Below, piece after piece: positions 4,093 through 35,865 of a stretch of 61,443 nt of DNA. Position 1 is the stretch's first letter. Every line of letters begins with the position of its first letter. Source of the stretch: Porticoccaceae bacterium (lineage in GTDB: Bacteria > Pseudomonadota > Gammaproteobacteria > Pseudomonadales > Porticoccaceae); NCBI GenBank assembly GCA_017858135.1, contig JAFMBY010000003.1, positions 1 to 61,443 on the forward strand, written 5' to 3'. A program made the position numbers and the translations under genes. Under the pieces are notes generated by a model. The model saw only the letters and a list, made by a program, of their open reading frames with translations, made no database searches and was not told where the DNA came from.

Positions 4093-4536
4093 ATGGGGAA
4101 CAGGATAGTCCCTAGCAGCAAAAAACAGAGTTTAAGCGGCAGTGCTGCTGAGCAAATGGCACTGGATTTTTTGCGCTCTCAAGGACTGACCGTTGTGGCG
4201 AGGAACTTTCGCACACGTAGGGGCGAAATTGATCTGATTATGCTGGATAATGAAGTGTTAGTGTTTGTCGAAGTGCGCTTTCGCCAGAGCGCTGAATTTG
4301 GCTCAGCTGAGGAATCCATTACCGCTCAAAAATGTCGCCGCTTAACGGCAGCAGCCGAGGGTTATATGCAGAGTTGTAACCTCACTGAAAAAGTCATTGC
4401 GCGTTTTGACGCCATCGCGATCAGCCCCGACAGACAAGCGAATCGCAATATCCCTGGTGGTGCGAAGCGCGAAGGCAACAGAAGTTATTCGACAGGCGAG
4501 TATCGTATTACATGGATACAAAATATTTTGCAGTAG
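4093..4536 (+). CDS. yraN: YraN / UPF0102 family endonuclease-like protein
   Basis: This is a 147-residue member of the UPF0102 family, which has a restriction-endonuclease-like fold. The family core is visible: GEIDLIM at about residues 46-52, then VFVEVRFR at about 59-66, with the acidic residues and Lys/Arg arranged as in PD-(D/E)XK enzymes. An AGGGAA ribosome site precedes the ATG. It lies 27 bases after lpoA and 27 before the diaA-like gene, so it is in the same operon. The cellular role of the family is not well settled, and I assign none. Confidence 0.88.
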   Translation: MGNRIVPSSKKQSLSGSAAEQMALDFLRSQGLTVVARNFRTRRGEIDLIMLDNEVLVFVEVRFRQSAEFGSAEESITAQKCRRLTAAAEGYMQSCNLTEKVIARFDAIAISPDRQANRNIPGGAKREGNRSYSTGEYRITWIQNILQ

Positions 4537-4563
4537 CAGATAGTTAAAATAGGAATCAAGTCT

Positions 4564-5136
4564 TTGGACGCTGTGGATCAAAAGGTTTTTAACCACTTTC
4601 AAAAAATGATTGAGGCGACTATGGCCACCGGCGAAACATGTGCCGAGCCGATAGTCAGTGCGGCAGAGAAAATTGCCTCAGCACTGTTAGCAGGAAATCG
4701 TATTTTTACCTGTGGTGAAAAATCTAGCGTGTTTATCGCGCAACTGCTCAGTGATTACCTGGCACTGGGTTACGATATCGATCGTCCCGGATTTCCGTCA
4801 ATCAATCTCAACCAGTTAACTCAGCATAACTGTGACGAAGAACGCTACAACCAAGCGCTTAGCACCCACGCGGAGAGTGGCGACATTCTGGTGTTACTGA
4901 GCGCGGGAAACAGTGCGCCGCTAATGCTCAGCGCCCTGAATACTGCGGTTAACCGGGGCATGTCTATTGTCTTGGTTTCAACAGAAAATGATCACTCATT
5001 GGCCGACTCAGTGAGCTACAATGATGTTCATATTAGTGTGGCAGGGGGGACAGCTCCGCTGATCACTCAATCACAGCTACAAGTCGTTCAGAGCATCTGC
5101 GCTCTGATAGACAGCCATATTTTTGGAGGCGAATAA
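4564..5136 (+). CDS. DiaA/GmhA-type SIS-domain protein with degenerate sugar-binding loop
   Basis: The position (between yraN and dolP), length (190) and overall pattern identify this as the DiaA homologue. In E. coli DiaA binds DnaA and promotes initiation; related GmhA proteins isomerise sedoheptulose 7-phosphate. The SIS fold is seen in GDILVLLSAGNSAPLMLSAL (about residues 104-123). The normally conserved CGNGGSA loop reads CGEKSSVF here (about 50-57), so the phosphosugar site is altered. The start is TTG, with AGGAA upstream; no ATG lies closer to the family N-terminus. The stop is directly followed by the dolP start. A structural or DnaA-binding role is more likely than catalysis, by inference. 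Confidence 0.78.
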   Translation: MDAVDQKVFNHFQKMIEATMATGETCAEPIVSAAEKIASALLAGNRIFTCGEKSSVFIAQLLSDYLALGYDIDRPGFPSINLNQLTQHNCDEERYNQALSTHAESGDILVLLSAGNSAPLMLSALNTAVNRGMSIVLVSTENDHSLADSVSYNDVHISVAGGTAPLITQSQLQVVQSICALIDSHIFGGE

Positions 5137-8108: not shown

Positions 8109-10145
8109 TTAATGAATGCCTTTCCAATACTCGCGATTAAGCAGCATAACAAAGACCAGCAACAACAACAGAAATAACAGTACCATGCGGCCAATATGCT
8201 TGCGCTCTTCTGCCATGGGCTCTGCCACATAGGTCAGAAAGTTGACTAGATCATACATCGCCACGTCAAACTCTTCGGCAGTCATGCTGCCCGCCGAAGC
8301 GATATTGAAACGACCACAGGGATCGTCAAGAATATCTTCACCGCTTAAGAGATCGCGTTTTATACCGCCACTGGCTGTCAACACCGGCCCTGGCGCACAT
8401 TCTGGCAAGCCCTGCAGATCCAGCAGCACATGCGGCATACCGACATCTTTAAAGACCTTGTTGTTGACACCAAAAGGGCGACTTGGATCGGCATAAAAAT
8501 TACGCAGATAAGTGTAGACCCATTCGGACGAACGAGCCCGCGCGACCAACGTCAAATCTGGTGGCACAACACCAAACCACTCCTTGGCGCCGTCTTCAGG
8601 CATCGATATTTTCATCAGATCACCGATCTTCTGATCAGTGAAAACCATATTATCGAGCATCATCTGATTGGGAATACCAATATCGTTGGCAACGCGTTCC
8701 CAGCGAGAGTACTGAAACGAATGGCAACCCATGCAGTAGTTAACCGCCAGTTGAGCGCCACTCTGCAGTGAAGCATGGTCACGAAGATCGGCTTCAAAAG
8801 TATCACAATCGATGGTTCCACACGATTTTCCGCTCTCAGCACCCACTGCTTTAATCGGTAAAATCACCAGCAGCGCGACGATCAGCACGCCGCCCAGCGT
8901 CTTCCAAACACCAATTCCACCATCCATGGTAATGCGGTCTGGCTCAGGCCTAGTCGTCTCCATACGGGTCCAGAAGTAGATGCCAATAAAGTACGCAAAG
9001 TACAGAACAGTACAGATCTGCGCGAGCACTGTTCGTGCTGCCGTCGGCGCCTTAACACCCAAGTATCCGAGGATAATAAAGCAGGCAACAAAGACCAGAA
9101 TCGCAGCGCGGCTGATGTTGCCTTTATACCGCATTGAGCGCACCGGACTGCGGTCCAACCAGGGCAGCACAAACAGAATCGCGATCGCCGCAGCCATGGT
9201 AATAAAACCACCGAGCTTGTCGGGAACCGCACGCAGCATTGAGTAGTAAGGGGTGAAATACCAAACCGGTGCAATATGCTCTGGAGTCTTCAACGAGTTG
9301 GCAATCTCAAAGTTTGCATACTCTAAGAAGTAGCCACCCATCTCTGGCATAAAGAACAGGATCGCGCAGAACACAAATAGGAACACAACGATGGGCACTA
9401 GATCGTGAATAACGAAATAAGGGTAGAACGGAAGGCCGTCAATCGGATTGCCGTTTTCATCTTTGTACTTTTTGATGCTGACGCCGTCTGGGTTATTAGA
9501 ACCCACGTCGTGCAACGCGATAATGTGCATCACCACCAGCGCAATCAAGATGATTGGCATCGCCACCACATGCAGAGACATAAACCGATTCAGGGTAATA
9601 CCAGAGATTAGATAATCACCACGAATCCATTGCACGACATCTTCACCAACCACCGGAATAGCGCCAAACAGCGAAATAATCACCTGCGCGCCCCAGTAGG
9701 ACATCTGCCCCCATGGCAATACATAACCGAGGAATGCCTCGGCCATTAGCACCACATAAATGGTCATGCCGAAGATCCACACCAGCTCGCGAGGCGCTTT
9801 GTAAGAGCCATAGATCAAGCCGCGGTACATGTGCAGGTAGACCACAACAAAGAACGCGGACGCACCGGTAGAGTGGGCATAGCGGATAATCCAACCCATA
9901 TCAACATCGCGCATTATGTATTCAACAGAGGCAAACGCCTGCTCTGCAGAACCCTGATAGCTCATCAACAACCAGACACCCGTCACCAGCTGAATAACCA
10001 GGACCACCATCGACAGTACGCCGAAGTAGTACCAAAAGTTGAAGTTCTTTGGCGCATAGTACTCGGCCATATGCCGATTCCACTCGCGCTTCAGCGTAGG
10101 CATACGCGAATCTAACCACTCAGCAAAAGCTGCTGCTTTACTCAT
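8109..10145 (-). CDS. Cytochrome b / cytochrome c1 fusion protein of the bc1 complex
   Basis: One uninterrupted 678-residue frame carries both cytochrome subunits of complex III. Residues 1-406 are cytochrome b: haem-b ligands His91/His105 and His192/His207 have the family spacing, and the Qo motif is PVWY at 293-296. Residues 407-678 are cytochrome c1. An internal hydrophobic signal segment ends in AVGA at about 436, followed by haem-c motif CMGCH at 471-475, the likely axial Met in GMPHVL, and a C-terminal membrane anchor. Most gammaproteobacteria, including Pseudomonas, encode petB and petC separately at about 403 and 260 residues. The fused arrangement recalls fbcH of Bradyrhizobium, where signal peptidase cuts the polyprotein. 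It overlaps petA by one base. Confidence 0.95.
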   Translation of the reverse strand: MSKAAAFAEWLDSRMPTLKREWNRHMAEYYAPKNFNFWYYFGVLSMVVLVIQLVTGVWLLMSYQGSAEQAFASVEYIMRDVDMGWIIRYAHSTGASAFFVVVYLHMYRGLIYGSYKAPRELVWIFGMTIYVVLMAEAFLGYVLPWGQMSYWGAQVIISLFGAIPVVGEDVVQWIRGDYLISGITLNRFMSLHVVAMPIILIALVVMHIIALHDVGSNNPDGVSIKKYKDENGNPIDGLPFYPYFVIHDLVPIVVFLFVFCAILFFMPEMGGYFLEYANFEIANSLKTPEHIAPVWYFTPYYSMLRAVPDKLGGFITMAAAIAILFVLPWLDRSPVRSMRYKGNISRAAILVFVACFIILGYLGVKAPTAARTVLAQICTVLYFAYFIGIYFWTRMETTRPEPDRITMDGGIGVWKTLGGVLIVALLVILPIKAVGAESGKSCGTIDCDTFEADLRDHASLQSGAQLAVNYCMGCHSFQYSRWERVANDIGIPNQMMLDNMVFTDQKIGDLMKISMPEDGAKEWFGVVPPDLTLVARARSSEWVYTYLRNFYADPSRPFGVNNKVFKDVGMPHVLLDLQGLPECAPGPVLTASGGIKRDLLSGEDILDDPCGRFNIASAGSMTAEEFDVAMYDLVNFLTYVAEPMAEERKHIGRMVLLFLLLLLVFVMLLNREYWKGIH

Positions 10146-29741: not shown

Positions 29742-29918
29742 ATGCTTAACTACCGATTGGTTGCCGTTTTAATCTTTCTCAGCAGCGTCGCTGTGCCCTT
29801 GGCATCAAGATGGGCAATAGAACCTCAAGGTAGTTGGTTTAGACCGTTTGTAGTCTGGGCACTGATCGTCTTCGCCGCCTATATTCTGCAGCGCCACAGG
29901 AAAACCGATGAATCTTGA
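29742..29918 (+). CDS. Small membrane protein in the CbrX position, overlapping cbrA
   Basis: This 58-residue ORF has two hydrophobic segments (about 5-22 and 36-49) and a basic end (LQRHRKTDES). It lies between gluQ and cbrA and overlaps cbrA by 11 bases. Pseudomonas has a small gene, cbrX, in this place, translationally coupled to cbrA. I assign the role by position only, because such a short sequence cannot be matched by eye. Coupling is supported by cbrA's AGGA ribosome site lying within the small ORF. Confidence 0.7.
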   Translation: MLNYRLVAVLIFLSSVAVPLASRWAIEPQGSWFRPFVVWALIVFAAYILQRHRKTDES

Positions 29919-32766
29919 TGTAGCGACCATTGCGTTTGGGTTCATAATTGCCGGCGTACTCTGCTCATATCTGCTGTCCAGATACGGTGGCGCCAACAGC
30001 CGCAACCTGATTTTGGTGCTGGCCCTATTTGCTGGTACTGGAGCGCTGCTTGCCACAGGCACTATCGAGATGGCCGGCCGCTATGGTTTTAGCGCACTGT
30101 TAGCACTGTTTGCCTTTACCATGGTGTTTCTCTTCTCACCGCTGATTTTTTACCCGATCCGCAGGCTCAATGAGATTATCCGCTTTGCCTCACTGATCGA
30201 TTTCCTGACCTTTCGTTTTCGCGGCAAAACTGTTGGGATAATTGCCTGCAGTGGTCTGCTAATAGCCACAGTTCCCCTATTTCTGGCACAGTACTTAGCA
30301 CTCTCTTCTGTGCATGATTTTCTTTTTGATGGCAACAAATGGTTGTTTAGGTTAGGTATTGTTTCCACCATTATCATCATTAACTGGAGTGCAATTAAAC
30401 ATGGCATGGCGCGAAATCTGCGCTGGGTAATGGCGGCGGCAGGACTGCTAATGCTGTTAGCATTAACCACCTCTGCACTGGCTTCTGTCACTTCGATTTT
30501 TGGTGGTATTGGAGAAATGAATCAGTGGGTTGTCAGTAGTGGTCAGAGATTGATTGTGCAACGAATGGATTCCTCCTACAGCCTCTTTGTTATTTTTCTC
30601 GCGGCAAGCTTCGCGCTACCGGTCAATTTTAGCATTGTCATCTCAGAGCATATCTCCGACAACCAAGCCAGCGTTACCGCTTGGGCATACCCTCTACTGA
30701 TGTTATTGGCGAGTATTCCAATCTTCCCGCTACTGTGGTCTGGTATTGCCGTGCAATCGGCATCGCCTCTACAAGACTATCTGTTTGCAATTCCAGCTTT
30801 TACTCAACATCCAGTCGCAGCAGGACTTGGTGCTGCGAGCATTGTTCTGGCGGCCATTGCGCTGCTCTGCAATATGTCGACCATGCTCGCCAAAATGGTG
30901 CTCAACAGCACTGTCTTGCCGACTAAAGTATTCCATCAACAGCCAAACTTAAGCCGTTGGATCGATCTTCGCCTGCTGGCCATTTCAACCGGACTCATTA
31001 TTGTCTGCGCGCTGCTCAGCCCCATTATCAAATCACGCAGCATCACCGACTTATACCTCGTCGGCTTTGCTGGACTGGCCCAACTAACGCCCGGCATGCT
31101 GGCCTCGATTTATCTGCCGAAAATCAATCGCAATGGATTTATTGCCGGACTGCTTGGCGGGCTGTCAATATGGTTGGTGACACTGGCACTGCCGATGCTA
31201 TTTGGCGACTGGAGTTGGAAGCTCCCTGGAACCGAGACTATCCTGACTTTTGGTATGCAAAGTTGGGAAATATGGGCCTTTGAAGCACTCATGGTGAATA
31301 TTTTCCTCTGCACCGTTTTTTCCATACTCAGCCACATGGACAGAGAACAGGAGTCATTTGCCAGACTCTGCATGGTGGACAATATCTATATCCCTGCCCG
31401 TGTCCAGCTCCGTCACAACTCAGTGGAACAAATGCGGCTCAGCTTACGCAGCTTGCTCGGTGACGAAGCTGACGGGGAGATCGATCGAGCACTCAGCAGT
31501 CTCGATCTCGATGGCAGCGAGACTAAACCAGCGGCGCTACGGAAAATTCGCGACAGATTGAACTCGGCTCTGACACTGCGCTTTGGTGTGCTCGCTGCTT
31601 ATAGAATTATGGAGGAGGCACTGCCGCTGCTGACACCCGCGCGCCAGGAGCCCGATGATATCTATCTGATCGAATCTGTACTCGCCATTCAAGGGGACCG
31701 ACTTACCGGTATCGCCAGCGAGCTGAATAAGCTGCGTATGCATCACCGCGAAATTCTCGACAACCTGCCGATTGGCATTATTGCTTTAGGACAGGGCGGC
31801 GAGATTATTAAATGGAATAGCACGATGGCGCATTACACCGGCATTGACGGGGATATGGCCGCCGGTAGTCTCATCAATGACCTGCCGGAGCCCTGGCGTT
31901 CAGCCATCGCAACATTTTTAAATGAAGACGACTGGAGTAAAGACAGTCTGGAACTGGAATTGGCAGGAAAAACACACTGGTTTAGCCTGCAAAAGTCTGT
32001 CGATAACAGCAGCGATCATGATTTGATACTGCTGGTTGAAGATCAGACCCAATCAGTGCTCTTGACGCAAAATTACATTAGCAATGAACGCTTGGCGTCA
32101 GTGGGCCGGCTGGCCGCAGGTGTTGCCCATGAGATAGGCAATCCGGTAACCGGAATTGCCTGTATCGCGCAGAATTTGCAGCACGAGACAGAAGCCGCTG
32201 AAATAGCAAACTCTGCACAGCTTATTCTCTCTCAGACTGACCGTATCAACGTGATCGTTCAATCGTTGATCAATTTCTCTCGCGGTGATCAGGCCTATAA
32301 CAACCAATTGCAGTCAGTGTGCGCGCGCGATGTCGTGGAAGAAGCCATACAACTGCTCAGTCTGACCAAGCCGCAATACAGAGAGCAATTTATCTGCACG
32401 CTCGATGCTACTCTGTATGTTGCCGGTGACCACCGTCAACTGGTGCAGATATTTGTCAATCTTTTAAGCAACGCCCGCGATGCGTCGCCTGATAACAGCC
32501 CAATTGAGATCAGTGCCAAGCGCCAAGATCAGTCGTTGACAATCATGGTCAGCGACCGTGGTAGTGGTATTCACAGCAGTATAGAGGACCGTATGTTCGA
32601 ACCCTTCGTGACCTCAAAAGAGCCCGGGGAAGGCACCGGACTGGGGCTTTGGGTGGTGTTTAATCTAGTCAAAAATCTCGGTGGTGAGATCAGCCTGACA
32701 AGTCCGGCGATTAACAGCGATTGCGGGACAACCGTCGAGCTCGTTTTCAACTTGCACAGCGATTAA
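29908..32766 (+). CDS. cbrA: CbrA: histidine kinase fused to an SLC5-type transporter domain
   Basis: CbrA of Pseudomonas senses carbon/nitrogen balance and can transport histidine. The 952-residue protein has about 13 membrane segments in residues 1-500 with the sodium-solute-symporter (SLC5) pattern. A linker and PAS domain follow (about 610-720; ILDNLPIGIIALGQGGEIIKWN), then the HisKA domain with His741 in GVAHEIGNP, N-box NLLSNARDAS, and G-boxes DRGSGI and GTGLGLWVV. ATG 29908 has AGGA upstream at spacing 7-8 and overlaps the small cbrX-like ORF. cbrB follows after 75 bases. Confidence 0.93.
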   Translation: MNLDVATIAFGFIIAGVLCSYLLSRYGGANSRNLILVLALFAGTGALLATGTIEMAGRYGFSALLALFAFTMVFLFSPLIFYPIRRLNEIIRFASLIDFLTFRFRGKTVGIIACSGLLIATVPLFLAQYLALSSVHDFLFDGNKWLFRLGIVSTIIIINWSAIKHGMARNLRWVMAAAGLLMLLALTTSALASVTSIFGGIGEMNQWVVSSGQRLIVQRMDSSYSLFVIFLAASFALPVNFSIVISEHISDNQASVTAWAYPLLMLLASIPIFPLLWSGIAVQSASPLQDYLFAIPAFTQHPVAAGLGAASIVLAAIALLCNMSTMLAKMVLNSTVLPTKVFHQQPNLSRWIDLRLLAISTGLIIVCALLSPIIKSRSITDLYLVGFAGLAQLTPGMLASIYLPKINRNGFIAGLLGGLSIWLVTLALPMLFGDWSWKLPGTETILTFGMQSWEIWAFEALMVNIFLCTVFSILSHMDREQESFARLCMVDNIYIPARVQLRHNSVEQMRLSLRSLLGDEADGEIDRALSSLDLDGSETKPAALRKIRDRLNSALTLRFGVLAAYRIMEEALPLLTPARQEPDDIYLIESVLAIQGDRLTGIASELNKLRMHHREILDNLPIGIIALGQGGEIIKWNSTMAHYTGIDGDMAAGSLINDLPEPWRSAIATFLNEDDWSKDSLELELAGKTHWFSLQKSVDNSSDHDLILLVEDQTQSVLLTQNYISNERLASVGRLAAGVAHEIGNPVTGIACIAQNLQHETEAAEIANSAQLILSQTDRINVIVQSLINFSRGDQAYNNQLQSVCARDVVEEAIQLLSLTKPQYREQFICTLDATLYVAGDHRQLVQIFVNLLSNARDASPDNSPIEISAKRQDQSLTIMVSDRGSGIHSSIEDRMFEPFVTSKEPGEGTGLGLWVVFNLVKNLGGEISLTSPAINSDCGTTVELVFNLHSD

Positions 32767-32841: not shown

Positions 32842-34134
32842 ATGAGTAATATGCCGAAAACAAATCAGATCTTGATTGTCGAAGACGAAGAGATCATCCG
32901 TAAGTCTTTGTGCAAGTTGCTTGAGCGACATGGCTACGGCGTCTGTGAAGCGGTGAGTATCAAGGCGGCTCGTGAGACCTTTGTGCTTGACAACTTTTCG
33001 CTGATCATCAGCGACCTTCGCCTGCCGGGACAACTGGGAACGGATCTCATCAAAATGGTCGCTCCGGTGCCAGTTTTGATCATGACCAGCTATGCCAGCT
33101 TGCGCTCCGCCGTGGATACTATGCGCCAGGGCGCAGTCGACTATATTTCCAAACCCTTTGATCACGACGAGATGATGGTTGCCGTGCGGCGCATTCTCAA
33201 TGCATCACAGAAAAATGCTACGACAGCCACGATCTCGCTGCAGACGCCATCCTTGTTAGGCTCGAGTGAAGCGATCAAGAAAGTGACTCGCCTGATCTCC
33301 AAGGTCGCAGCTTCAGACCTGCCTATATTAATTCAGGGAGAAACCGGCAGTGGCAAATCTGCCGTTGCCATGGCGATACACAACACCAGAAAATGCAGTG
33401 ACAAGGCATTTATCAGTATTGATTGCGCGGGTATCAAAGAGAGTGAGCTGGTCACTCAGCTCGGCACGAGCGATCTCTCAGTTACTGTTTTTCTCAATAA
33501 TATTGGCGAGTTACCCCTGTCACTACAGCCCCATCTCCTGAGACATATACAGCGCAGCAACTGCAGTTTTATCTGCTCTACTGACCAAGATCTGGAACAC
33601 CTCTGTCAGGGTGGTCTATTTCGCAAAGATCTCTACTACCAGATTAATGTTGTCAGCATAACCATGCCGCCCCTGAGACAGCGCAGCGAGGATATTCCGC
33701 TGATAGCAAACGCGATACTGGCCCAGCTTAGTGATAGCCATCGGGAATTGAGCGAAGACGGCAGAAAAGCACTGGCCAACTACCACTGGCCGGGCAACCT
33801 GCTACAGCTTAAAAATACTCTACAGCAGGCGGCGATACTGGCCTCTGAAGATACACCGATTGACGCGGAACAACTTGGCCTCAGTGATCTGCCCTTAAAT
33901 CCCTATCAGGAGTCAGATTCAGTTCGCAGCACTTTATCAATCAATCAAGTTGACGATGCTCCAGCGGGCCTGTCTCTGGAGGACTATTTCACTCGTTTTG
34001 TATTGGAAAACCAGGAAAATATGAGCGAAACAGATCTTGCTAAAAAGCTTGGAATAAGTCGCAAGAGTCTCTGGGAGCGGCGCAACAAACTGGGTATTAG
34101 CCGGAAAAAGGGTGATGAGCTGGTCAACGACTGA
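32842..34134 (+). CDS. cbrB: CbrB-type response regulator with eroded AAA+ domain (no GAFTGA)
   Basis: The 430-residue protein has a receiver domain (1-120; Asp58 in SDLRLPG, Lys in SKPFDHDE), an AAA+ region (about 140-340) and a Fis-type HTH. The C-terminal block LEDYFTRFVLENQENMSETDLA, then LGISRKSLWERR, is the CbrB signature. Walker A is present (GETGSGKS, 166-173). The loop that should carry GAFTGA is absent, and Walker B reads FLNNI (217-221), with Asn-Asn for Asp-Glu. The sensor I region is also shortened. It is about 45 residues shorter than Pseudomonas CbrB. It should still receive phosphate and bind DNA, but not remodel sigma54 holoenzyme. Confidence 0.92.
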   Translation: MSNMPKTNQILIVEDEEIIRKSLCKLLERHGYGVCEAVSIKAARETFVLDNFSLIISDLRLPGQLGTDLIKMVAPVPVLIMTSYASLRSAVDTMRQGAVDYISKPFDHDEMMVAVRRILNASQKNATTATISLQTPSLLGSSEAIKKVTRLISKVAASDLPILIQGETGSGKSAVAMAIHNTRKCSDKAFISIDCAGIKESELVTQLGTSDLSVTVFLNNIGELPLSLQPHLLRHIQRSNCSFICSTDQDLEHLCQGGLFRKDLYYQINVVSITMPPLRQRSEDIPLIANAILAQLSDSHRELSEDGRKALANYHWPGNLLQLKNTLQQAAILASEDTPIDAEQLGLSDLPLNPYQESDSVRSTLSINQVDDAPAGLSLEDYFTRFVLENQENMSETDLAKKLGISRKSLWERRNKLGISRKKGDELVND

Positions 34135-34146
34135 CGAAGTGTTTCG

Positions 34147-34190
34147 AAAAGTAATACTTTTGCCAAGGAAAATAGCCCAAAGGTACTTTT
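34147..34190 (+). promoter_or_regulatory. Two dyads upstream of the candidate CrcZ-like RNA
   Basis: AAAAGT-AAT-ACTTTT (34147-34161) is a perfect inverted repeat. A second, shorter and related element, AAAGGTACTTTT, is at 34179-34190. Their centres are about 30 bases apart, close to three helical turns, and the second ends just before the -35 box at 34193. They are plausible binding sites for a dimeric activator such as CbrB, by inference. Confidence 0.45.
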
Positions 34191-34192
34191 CT

Positions 34193-34220
34193 TTGAATGA
34201 ATAGAGTAATTGTTTACAAT
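34193..34220 (+). promoter_or_regulatory. Candidate sigma70 promoter of the CrcZ-like RNA
   Basis: TTGAAT (34193-34198), a 16-base spacer and TACAAT (34215-34220) form a good sigma70 promoter. The -10 lies in a small palindrome (ATTGT-TT-ACAAT, 34209-34220). I searched the same stretch for a sigma54 -24/-12 element (GG-N10-GC) and found none. Confidence 0.5.
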
Positions 34221-34226
34221 CGTCCC

Positions 34227-34380
34227 TCGGAGCTTTTGGCTTTGATCATAATAATAAAAAATAATAATAATAATTCTTGGATGGATGTAAAAAGAGTGTC
34301 CGGTCGGCTCTAGATTTTGATCTAAAGTGCGTACTGAAGGACCATTGAGGGGGGCTGCCTTAGGGCAACCCCTTATTTCA
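34227..34380 (+). ncRNA. Candidate CrcZ-like Hfq-sequestering small RNA
   Basis: The cbrB-pcnB gap is 369 bases and has no ORF of note. It contains a run of AAU/AAA triplets from about 34248 to 34274, the A-A-N pattern bound by the Hfq distal face with Crc in Pseudomonas. A hairpin follows (TAGAT/ATCTA, 34311-34324), then a terminator hairpin (34351-34372). With the promoter above this gives an RNA of about 150 nt. P. aeruginosa crcZ occupies exactly this place but is longer and sigma54-driven. The bases from 34381 to 34503 hold only a possible pcnB -10 (TATAAC, 34477-34482). Confidence 0.6.
34351..34380 (+). terminator. Terminator of the CrcZ-like RNA
   Basis: The stem pairs 34351-34359 with 34364-34372 (eight pairs and one C-A mismatch) around a 4-base loop, followed by TTATTTCATT. 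The T-run is interrupted, so read-through into pcnB is possible. Confidence 0.6.
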
Positions 34381-34503
34381 TTCTGAATAGAGCCTAATTG
34401 CTGTTATCACCAAACTCACCTGGGACATTGCTTTAGTCTCCCGTCGACATCTTTCCTCTGTTAAACTCTCGGTTCTTATAACAACCTAATCGGCACCCAC
34501 TTA

Positions 34504-35865
34504 ATGCTGGACCGCATAAGTAGATTTTTCAAAAGAGATAAAGCCTCCCATCGCTCTACAGGTCGCCGTGTCTTTGGTGATGGAGAACACAGCCTGTCTC
34601 CAGAAATGATCAATCGTGATGCCTTTAAAGTTATCGACGTTTTACAAAAAGCTGGATTTGAAGCCTATATAGTGGGCGGCTGTGTACGCGACCTGCTGAT
34701 TGGCTTAAAGCCTAAGGACTTTGACGTAGCAACCAGCGCTAAGCCCTGGGAAGTCAAAGAACTGTTTCGCCGCTCACGAATTATTGGCCGACGCTTTCAA
34801 ATCGTTCATGTTCAGTTTGGCCGCGAGATAATCGAAGTCACGACGTTTAGATCCAATAGCAGCCAGACAAGCGGTAAAAATCATCGCCAGCAGACGGACA
34901 GCGGAATGCTTACGCGAGACAATGTATTTGGCTCCGTAGAGGAAGATGCCTCGCGCCGCGACCTGACCGTCAATGCCCTCTACTACGATCCCAGTGACAA
35001 CAGCATCCATGATTTTACCAATGGTCTTGACGATATAGACGATCAGATAATTCGTATTATTGGCGACCCGGAAACCCGCTTTCGCGAAGACCCAGTGCGG
35101 CTATTAAGGGTGGCGCGATTCGCAGCAAAGCTTGGTTTTAACATAGACTCTGACACCGCAAATCCGATGAAACATCGCGCGGCGGATTTGCAGCAAGTTT
35201 CGCCACCACGATTGTTTGACGAAACACTTAAACTATTTATGAGTGGTCAGGGCTTAGACACATTTAAGCTATTAGTCGAGCACAACCTGTTTGATTATAT
35301 TGTTCCCCAGCTGGCACCCATGCTCAACGATCAGCAGGGAATACCGATGAAGCTGGTGTCTCAGGCACTGATCAATACCGACAAACGGATTGAAACCTCA
35401 CAGCGCGTGACGCCGGCCTTTATTTACGCCGCCCTACTCTGGCCCGCGGTGCAAAGACTGGCTAGAAATTACGAAAAAAATGGCAACTCACCCCCCTATG
35501 CCTTGAGCAAGGCGGCTGGGGAAATTATTGTCAACCAGATTCCAGTCACCGCTATCCCCAAGCGCTTCACCATTCCCATGCGCGAGATCTGGGATTTACA
35601 ATTGCACTTGCGTCGCCGGGGCGGCACTCGCGCCCAGCGCCTAGTCGAGCATCCACGGTTTAGAGCAGCCTATGATTTTGTTTTACTGCGCGAGCAAGCA
35701 GGTGAGGATCTCGGTGGACTCGGCGAGTGGTGGACGGCCTATCAGCAGGCCGATCATGAAAACCGCCAGACCATGGCTGATGAGGTTATGGCCAGTGACC
35801 GCGGACCCAAAAAACGTCGGCGACGACGCAGCGGCGGTAAACCTGCGGCGGACCCTGCTCGCTAA
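34504..35865 (+). CDS. pcnB: Poly(A) polymerase I
   Basis: PcnB adds poly(A) tails that mark RNAs for decay. The 453-residue protein has the class II nucleotidyltransferase core GGCVRDLLIG and KDFDVATSAKP (catalytic Asp pair), the REIIEVTTFR strand, RRDLTVNALYYD and the RNA-binding REDPVRLLR region. The basic tail PKKRRRRRSGGK is typical of bacterial poly(A) polymerases. There is no obvious Shine-Dalgarno at the ATG. Its TAA shares a base with the ATG of folK. Confidence 0.95.
   Translation: MLDRISRFFKRDKASHRSTGRRVFGDGEHSLSPEMINRDAFKVIDVLQKAGFEAYIVGGCVRDLLIGLKPKDFDVATSAKPWEVKELFRRSRIIGRRFQIVHVQFGREIIEVTTFRSNSSQTSGKNHRQQTDSGMLTRDNVFGSVEEDASRRDLTVNALYYDPSDNSIHDFTNGLDDIDDQIIRIIGDPETRFREDPVRLLRVARFAAKLGFNIDSDTANPMKHRAADLQQVSPPRLFDETLKLFMSGQGLDTFKLLVEHNLFDYIVPQLAPMLNDQQGIPMKLVSQALINTDKRIETSQRVTPAFIYAALLWPAVQRLARNYEKNGNSPPYALSKAAGEIIVNQIPVTAIPKRFTIPMREIWDLQLHLRRRGGTRAQRLVEHPRFRAAYDFVLLREQAGEDLGGLGEWWTAYQQADHENRQTMADEVMASDRGPKKRRRRRSGGKPAADPAR

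Follow-up and report, generated by a model that had tools for sequence, protein, structure and literature searches.

In Pseudomonas and Azotobacter, the small RNA CrcZ is encoded between cbrB and pcnB and, as reported in PMC4063720, binds the distal face of Hfq via (ARN)n motifs, thereby titrating this protein. The corresponding gap in a Porticoccaceae bacterium raises the question of whether an RNA of this kind persists where its sigma54 activator has been altered; a preliminary description had proposed a CrcZ-type RNA rewired to sigma70. The window (the whole stretch of 61,443 nt that was analysed) is contig 33 of a draft genome of 2.44 Mb with 96.5% completeness. Here cbrA and cbrB are followed by a gap of 369 nt and pcnB. 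The name CbrA rests on the position of this gene ahead of cbrB, and no transporter domain was matched in its product by Pfam at E<=1e-3. The features of the locus are as follows.

29908-32766, plus strand: cbrA, sensor histidine kinase with PAS, HisKA and HATPase_c domains (open reading frame, Pfam).
32842-34134, plus strand: cbrB, encoding a response regulator that combines a receiver domain with a C-terminal HTH (aligned to 14 further CbrB proteins).
34140-34156, no strand assigned: CbrB-like half-site pair TGTTTC-N5-GTAATA, each half matching at 5/6 positions, centred about 79 nt before the predicted RNA start.
34193-34220, plus strand: sigma70-like promoter, with -35 TTGAAT at 34193-34198, a spacing of 16 nt and -10 TACAAT at 34215-34220 (promoter scan; TTGNNN-16-TANAAT in many relatives).
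34227-34379, plus strand: putative small RNA gene of about 153 nt (start predicted from the -10 element; match to covariance model R1).
34227-34245, plus strand: 5' hairpin (predicted fold; sequence variable among relatives).
34248-34275, plus strand: (ARN)n tract, an AAU/AAA run and candidate Hfq distal-face site (motif count, conservation).
34279-34287, plus strand: GGATGGATG, a conserved motif placed in a predicted loop in the window (alignment, fold, conservation).
34298-34342, plus strand: 3' stem-loop (fold and covariation).
34349-34379, plus strand: intrinsic-terminator-like hairpin and U-rich tail (fold; helix 5 of alignment A2).
34455-34467, plus strand: CCTCTGTTAAACT, a promoter-like element ahead of pcnB that RNA-less relatives have retained.
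34504-35865, plus strand: pcnB, poly(A) polymerase (TIGR01942, 529.8 bits against a cut-off of 305.65).

The RNA gene thus reads, from its upstream end, as sigma70-like promoter, 5' hairpin, (ARN)n tract, GGATGGAT, 3' stem and terminator. Promoter and triplet run lie where the preliminary description had put them, and its hairpins, terminator and RNA length of about 150 nt agree with the predicted fold; the absence of GG-N10-GC that it reported holds for the sequence upstream of the RNA, but the sole such element of the gap sits within the terminator. The promoter-like match (9/12; a scan of 801 nt gave four such sites against 1.3 expected) is, in the window alone, weak evidence. ARN triplets in runs of at least three number 14 in the gap as opposed to a mean of 3.9, a count reached by 3/2000 dinucleotide shuffles; the tract is single, long and interrupted (two runs of four, longest in-frame run of six) and does not form six separate motifs, CrcZ being marked by several A-rich (ARN)n motifs with n>=4. 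By itself, the window RNA shows an unexceptional fold (z -1.09; 28/200 shuffles fold equally well), and structural support therefore comes from covariation in relatives, not from this fold alone. The terminator-like stem covers 34349-34374 and its tail ends in UUAUUUC; no terminator was reported by a mechanical scan of this region of the window, a miss that the imperfect T run probably explains.

The gaps of 14 relatives show the same order of elements (L013 is shortened by a contig end). Among nine close loci, conservation is limited to the promoter, the CbrB-like site and the RNA: the mean pairwise identity is 0.89 for the ARN tract, 0.90 for GGATGGATTGCG, 0.98 for GAACCATTGA, 0.77 for the terminator and 0.73 each for the -35/-10 elements and the CbrB-like site, whereas the upstream spacers reach 0.37-0.40 and the sequence beyond the terminator 0.18. 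Set beside the spacers, these values place the RNA far above chance, and the suspicion that the triplet run might be a chance microsatellite is not borne out. R1, a covariance model built from 14 sequences including the window, was applied to 112 family genomes and matched 68/112 at E<=1e-3 (42/70 good genomes); its match in the window, itself one of the 14, spans 34229-34377 (E 1.7e-17). At 70 of its 71 places, which were examined with the omission of a contig-end fragment (G054:C107), pcnB was found directly downstream, within about 0.6 kb, in 69 cases, and the remaining one lies at a contig end. Seven more genomes carry the RNA on reading of the gap: G094, G066 and G067 (R1 E-values of 2e-4, 3e-4 and 3e-3), G005, G097 and G069 (0.003, 0.03 and 0.08), and G004, in which it was recognised by eye only, R1 having no match up to E 10. 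The covariation search suggested earlier for this gap yielded, over 62 matches, 233 double-change cells compared with 68.8 after shuffling and 29-55 after sliding, and 89.2% of cells paired, figures which are flattered by the fitting of the alignment to the structure. In the terminator helix (helix 5 of A2), 99.3% of cells are paired and both-side changes occur in 9/9 pairs. We consider the RNA gene in the cbrB-pcnB gap to be almost certainly real.

Variants of the arrangement were also observed. Six cbrB-less genomes of genus g11 carry a tandem extra copy of the RNA upstream of pcnB (L113, L116, L117, L118, L127 and L137), the copy in L117 being weak (E 0.02). In L020 and L024 (~4312-4620), which belong to more distant MAGs with a CbrB of 43% identity, cbrB is followed by TTGGCAYRYATCATGC and an A-rich, terminator-ended stretch; pcnB was not found within the examined locus.

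The closest named relatives of the window CbrB are found in records labelled Porticoccaceae/SAR92, namely HTCC2207 (69% identity), MOLA455 (70%), H231 (55%) and H921 (53%). The RNA is present in the genomes named H231 and H921; it is absent from HTCC2207, MOLA455 and their kin, which together make up nine genomes from the sister group nearest to the window and have gaps of 92-169 nt. The triplet run is among the most conserved parts of the RNA where this is kept, but these nine close relatives lack the whole RNA. They retain a GAFTGA-less cbrB and a CTCTGTTAAACT-like element before pcnB, and a whole-genome scan with R1 (E<=1e-3) did not detect the RNA at any other location in these nine.

The proposal of a rewired promoter depends on the state of CbrB, whose earlier description as altered is substantiated by the alignment: the protein has a deletion in place of the GAFTGA loop and, at Walker B, VFLNN in place of the LFLDE of others. 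PF00158 matches the window CbrB with 95.9 bits and in two pieces, as compared to 249.1 bits for Pseudomonas-type CbrB; no GAFTGA-like motif was found in it, and the combination of GAFTGA and an intact Walker B that marks a sigma54-EBP is missing. Retained are the Asp of the receiver motif SDLRLPG, which we take to be the phospho-acceptor (receiver PF00072, E 6e-21), and the conserved C-terminal HTH.

Across genomes, GAFTGA CbrB occurs in genera g4, g7, g9, g10, g12 and g13 (GSFTGA in G005), in which a TGGCAY...GC site precedes the RNA. A sigma54 site at >=8/10 matches is present in 15/15 genomes with GAFTGA CbrB and in 2/57 without it (CbrB decayed, AAA+ lost or cbrB absent), the chance level being 93/15,000 base shuffles; the two are G016, in which the site is misplaced at -63, and G096, a real exception. 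The sigma70-like pattern TTG-N18..20-TANNNT, seen in 7.9% of shuffles, is found in 0/15 genomes with GAFTGA CbrB and in 41/57 without it, and is absent in 16/57. Both sets of 57 include cbrB-less genomes and they differ by one genome (G096/G108): the sigma54 table omits G004 (disrupted CbrB frame), G108 (contig beginning at the RNA) and G031 (without a pcnB row), while the sigma70 count takes in G108 and omits G096, G004 and G031. This distribution, a sigma54 site in sister genera with GAFTGA CbrB and a sigma70-like pattern where GAFTGA is lost, supports the proposed rewiring. In a PcnB tree (quick search, SH-aLRT support only), genera g1 (that of the window), g8 and g14 form one clade of 55 rows with a support of 98, and GAFTGA CbrB was not found among these rows. 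Losses of AAA+ and of cbrB are recurrent within the clade and are also seen outside it in g5/g11, G080/G084 and G096. The association of CbrB state with promoter type gives a Fisher p of 1e-13, which ignores kinship; few independent changes underlie it (four per trait), and by independent pairs (three well-supported: two agree, none opposes, one shows no difference) it is not significant.

Where cbrB is absent (20 genomes), the RNA persists, and the longest frame ahead of it is gluQ-like at its C-terminus, as judged by eye. The CbrB C-terminus was not found elsewhere in these 20 genomes, one weak match in G084 being another protein. G079 and G084 gave weak CbrB matches, as did G074 with a second one (E 2e-5 to 5e-4); these were likewise excluded, since size and identity mark them as other proteins. 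Two single cases may be mentioned here. G096 (L128) has a CbrB without the entire AAA+ domain, yet a 9-of-10 sigma54 site and CbrB half-sites at the RNA. In the cbrB-less G084 (L135), TTGACA was seen by eye in place of the ancestral -24 TTGGCA, which looks like the conversion of a sigma54 element into a sigma70 -35.

A further trace of CbrB is provided by its half-sites, given for P. putida as TGTTAC and GTAACA (PMC6296734); several relatives of the window read TGTTTC-N5-GTAACA at the CbrB-like site. Over 63 loci (a locus was omitted if it had <60 nt upstream or if no ORF lay within 500 nt), exact half-sites compare with base-shuffle expectations as 23 to 1.05 for GAFTGA CbrB (11/11 genomes), 16 to 1.93 for GAFTGA-less CbrB (12/25), 2 to 0.45 where AAA+ is lost (1/8) and 2 to 1.74 where cbrB is absent (2/19). 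No exact half-site is present in 13/25 genomes with GAFTGA-less CbrB, the window among them. As the half-sites persist in part of the clade, this part seemingly remains under CbrB; for the window RNA itself, the chances of control by CbrB appear evenly balanced.

The partner proteins named in the preliminary description, Hfq and Crc, fared differently: hfq is present in the window's genome, along with rpoN and csrA, but Crc was not found there or in the clade. PF03372 has two matches in this genome, exonuclease III and an 844-residue frame, both of which are un-Crc-like in identity or size. With a Pseudomonas-type Crc as query (best PDB matches 2myi, then 4jg3), relatives of 37-47% identity were detected in 38/112 genomes, all outside the clade (38/46); five aligned ones have Crc-like changes in common at the positions we take to be catalytic. 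Within g1, g8 and g14, drafts included, the count is 0/66; the only matches there, at 25-30%, presumably represent exonuclease III, by analogy with the genome of the window. It was likewise not found in 8/46 genomes outside the clade. Hence, only Hfq remains of the Hfq/Crc pair in the window's clade. Hfq is encoded in 107/112 genomes and 70/70 good genomes and rpoN has the same counts, the misses being drafts of 64-88% completeness. A loss of sigma54 itself was considered and rejected, since rpoN is kept; promoter and activator changed instead.

How closely is this RNA related to CrcZ? The Pseudomonas-type genome G390 has the order cbrB, GTAACA/TGTTAC sites, TTGGCACGCACCCTGC, CrcZ and pcnB, and this shared cbrB-RNA-pcnB order supports the designation as CrcZ-type. 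RF01675 (gathering cut-off 95 bits) has no match in the window, and none up to E 10 in 34100-34520; Rfam gave two tRNAs only at gathering score, together with three matches far below cut-off around the RNA. In eight sister loci, RF01675 found nothing at E<=1 in seven and scored 18 bits (cut-off 95) in the eighth. Conversely, R1 did not match ten RF01675 CrcZ loci, so that no direct sequence bridge joins both RNA types. On 24 further loci, R1 reached E 0.003-0.08 in three sister loci (L187, L190 and L191) and in L169 of another family, the remaining ones being at E 0.14 or worse. Searched against 390 genomes of the order, R2, a model built from 62 family sequences, matched 17. The window's family accounts for 13; the four outside it (f16, f22, f28 and f29) also adjoin cbrB and/or pcnB, and no Pseudomonas-type (f21) genome was matched. 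RF01675 matched 59/293 genomes of the order, 14 above cut-off (11 of f21 and 3 of f2). Among 20 loci hand-picked across several families out of 67 RF01675 places, 19/20 adjoin cbrB and/or pcnB and 19/20 show a sigma54-like site close to where the RNA begins; several of these RNAs are short and carry CCTGGATGGGG ahead of the terminator. Several families share a TGGATGG-like motif, located downstream of the ARN tract and ahead of the 3' stem or terminator (window 34279-34287; L160-L169). Loci of the type cbrB-sigma54-RNA-pcnB are thus present in several families of the order, beyond Pseudomonas and its close relatives, outside which the preliminary description knew of no described CrcZ analogue.

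CrcZ, a sequestering RNA for Hfq/Crc that lifts carbon catabolite repression, and the window RNA are alike in the cbrB-pcnB position, the (ARN)n content and an own terminator, and the locus is very probably orthologous to that of CrcZ. The sigma54 promoter and CbrB half-sites of CrcZ are shared by the window's sister genera; the window RNA differs by its sigma70-like promoter, a GAFTGA-less CbrB, Crc not being found and the lack of an RF01675 match. It measures about 153 nt with one long tract, compared to about 400 nt in CrcZ and six tracts in that of P. aeruginosa, which points to a smaller sponge. Lacking two defining features (RF01675 score and sigma54 promoter), the RNA is not counted as a CrcZ member; as far as sequence can tell, it would work like CrcZ from the same locus. 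The CbrA-CbrB system resembles the known one in that the sensor kinase precedes the response regulator and that the CbrB receiver and C-terminal HTH are well kept, but the window CbrB is without the sigma54-contact loop and Walker B, and some relatives of the window are without the whole AAA+ domain or cbrB altogether. On balance, the reading that we find reasonably probable is that of an Hfq-sequestering RNA of CrcZ lineage, predicted to be transcribed by sigma70 polymerase and to act independently of Crc. That the RNA binds Hfq appears likely with good confidence; that a decoy is its main role seems somewhat less assured, though still rather probable.

Class II Hfq-dependent sRNAs, for example ChiX, also bear ARN motifs. 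The window RNA could be one of these, its ARN tract lying on the distal face while GGATGGAT(TGC) pairs with target mRNAs, CrcZ ancestry having supplied merely promoter and place. An ARN tract within the RNA itself and a terminator are shared with this class, and GGATGGATTGCG, which would be superfluous for a pure sponge, is conserved as strongly as the ARN tract in the nine close loci, with a similar CCTGGATGGGG recurring in other families. Nevertheless, the motif is altered within the family (GTTTGATTGCG in G026, TTGATGAGTTGC in G087) while the ARN tract is retained, and the RNA, unlike class II sRNAs, sits at a CrcZ-type locus without a known pairing target; we deem this explanation unlikely. 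Clearly more doubtful is a putative dual sponge, in which GGA motifs would sequester CsrA beside the capture of Hfq: csrA is encoded, the window RNA has GGAUGGAUG in a predicted loop, and two close GGA occur in 33/70 RNAs and one in 25/70, but 12/70 have none in the counted stretch. Slightly less probable again is that the sequence is no separate gene but belongs to a neighbouring message, either as a pcnB leader or attenuator or as a 3' end of the cbrB transcript. The position between cbrB and pcnB would suit it, and read-through into crcZ from the cbrB promoter has been reported in Pseudomonas (PMC8871633); the RNA, however, has promoter-like and terminator elements of its own that are conserved, persists in genomes without cbrB, and in genomes that lack it pcnB still has a promoter-like element to itself. 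A chance A-rich spacer, to which the base composition of the gap and the modest fold z might point, is refuted by conservation and covariation and can practically be dismissed.

For the Hfq-sequestering RNA, the following course is envisaged. Polymerase with sigma70 would start near 34227 and stop at the terminator, giving an RNA of about 153 nt whose long unstructured A-R-N tract would bind the distal face of Hfq; Hfq drawn off A-rich ribosome-binding sites may then render less preferred carbon sources usable. The ancestral RNA would have been switched on by CbrB through sigma54 and have worked beside Crc. In the window's clade, we infer, CbrB lost the GAFTGA loop, the promoter turned sigma70-type and Crc was lost, for which reason the RNA is proposed to act now on Hfq alone, while CbrB, with receiver and DNA-binding domains retained, probably modulates the sigma70 promoter by way of the -79 site. 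The dismantling of CbrB in one marine Pseudomonadales clade may have gone stepwise, from the GAFTGA loop to the AAA+ domain and finally the gene. That a decoy RNA has in this manner outlived its own regulators and sequesters Hfq by itself is a scenario towards which we lean slightly.

If true, the GAFTGA-less CbrB would be a former sigma54 activator that regulates a sigma70 promoter via the same DNA half-sites. CbrAB has been said to be exclusive to Pseudomonadaceae (PMC6296734, PMC8871633); as opposed to the uniqueness to Pseudomonas and Azotobacter claimed there, the present sequences point to an older and wider CbrAB system of the order, in which forms midway between two sigma factors still exist for a single RNA. 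Transcripts of cbrAB were reported in a marine metatranscriptome (PMC5073097), according to which cbrAB-like genes have already been seen in sea water. In the literature searched (titles and abstract openings, with few subscription papers), no description of a window-type RNA or of a sigma70 CrcZ was encountered. SAR92-clade bacteria are common coastal carbon recyclers, and a comparison of H231 and H921, with the RNA, to HTCC2207 and MOLA455, without it, would bear on the role of a Crc-free Hfq decoy.

Elsewhere in the window, a second ARN-rich stretch at 8141-8201 was set aside, being antisense to the end of a cytochrome gene. The region 8109-10145 (minus strand) holds a single frame of 678 aa that, by eye, resembles cytochrome b fused to cytochrome c1.
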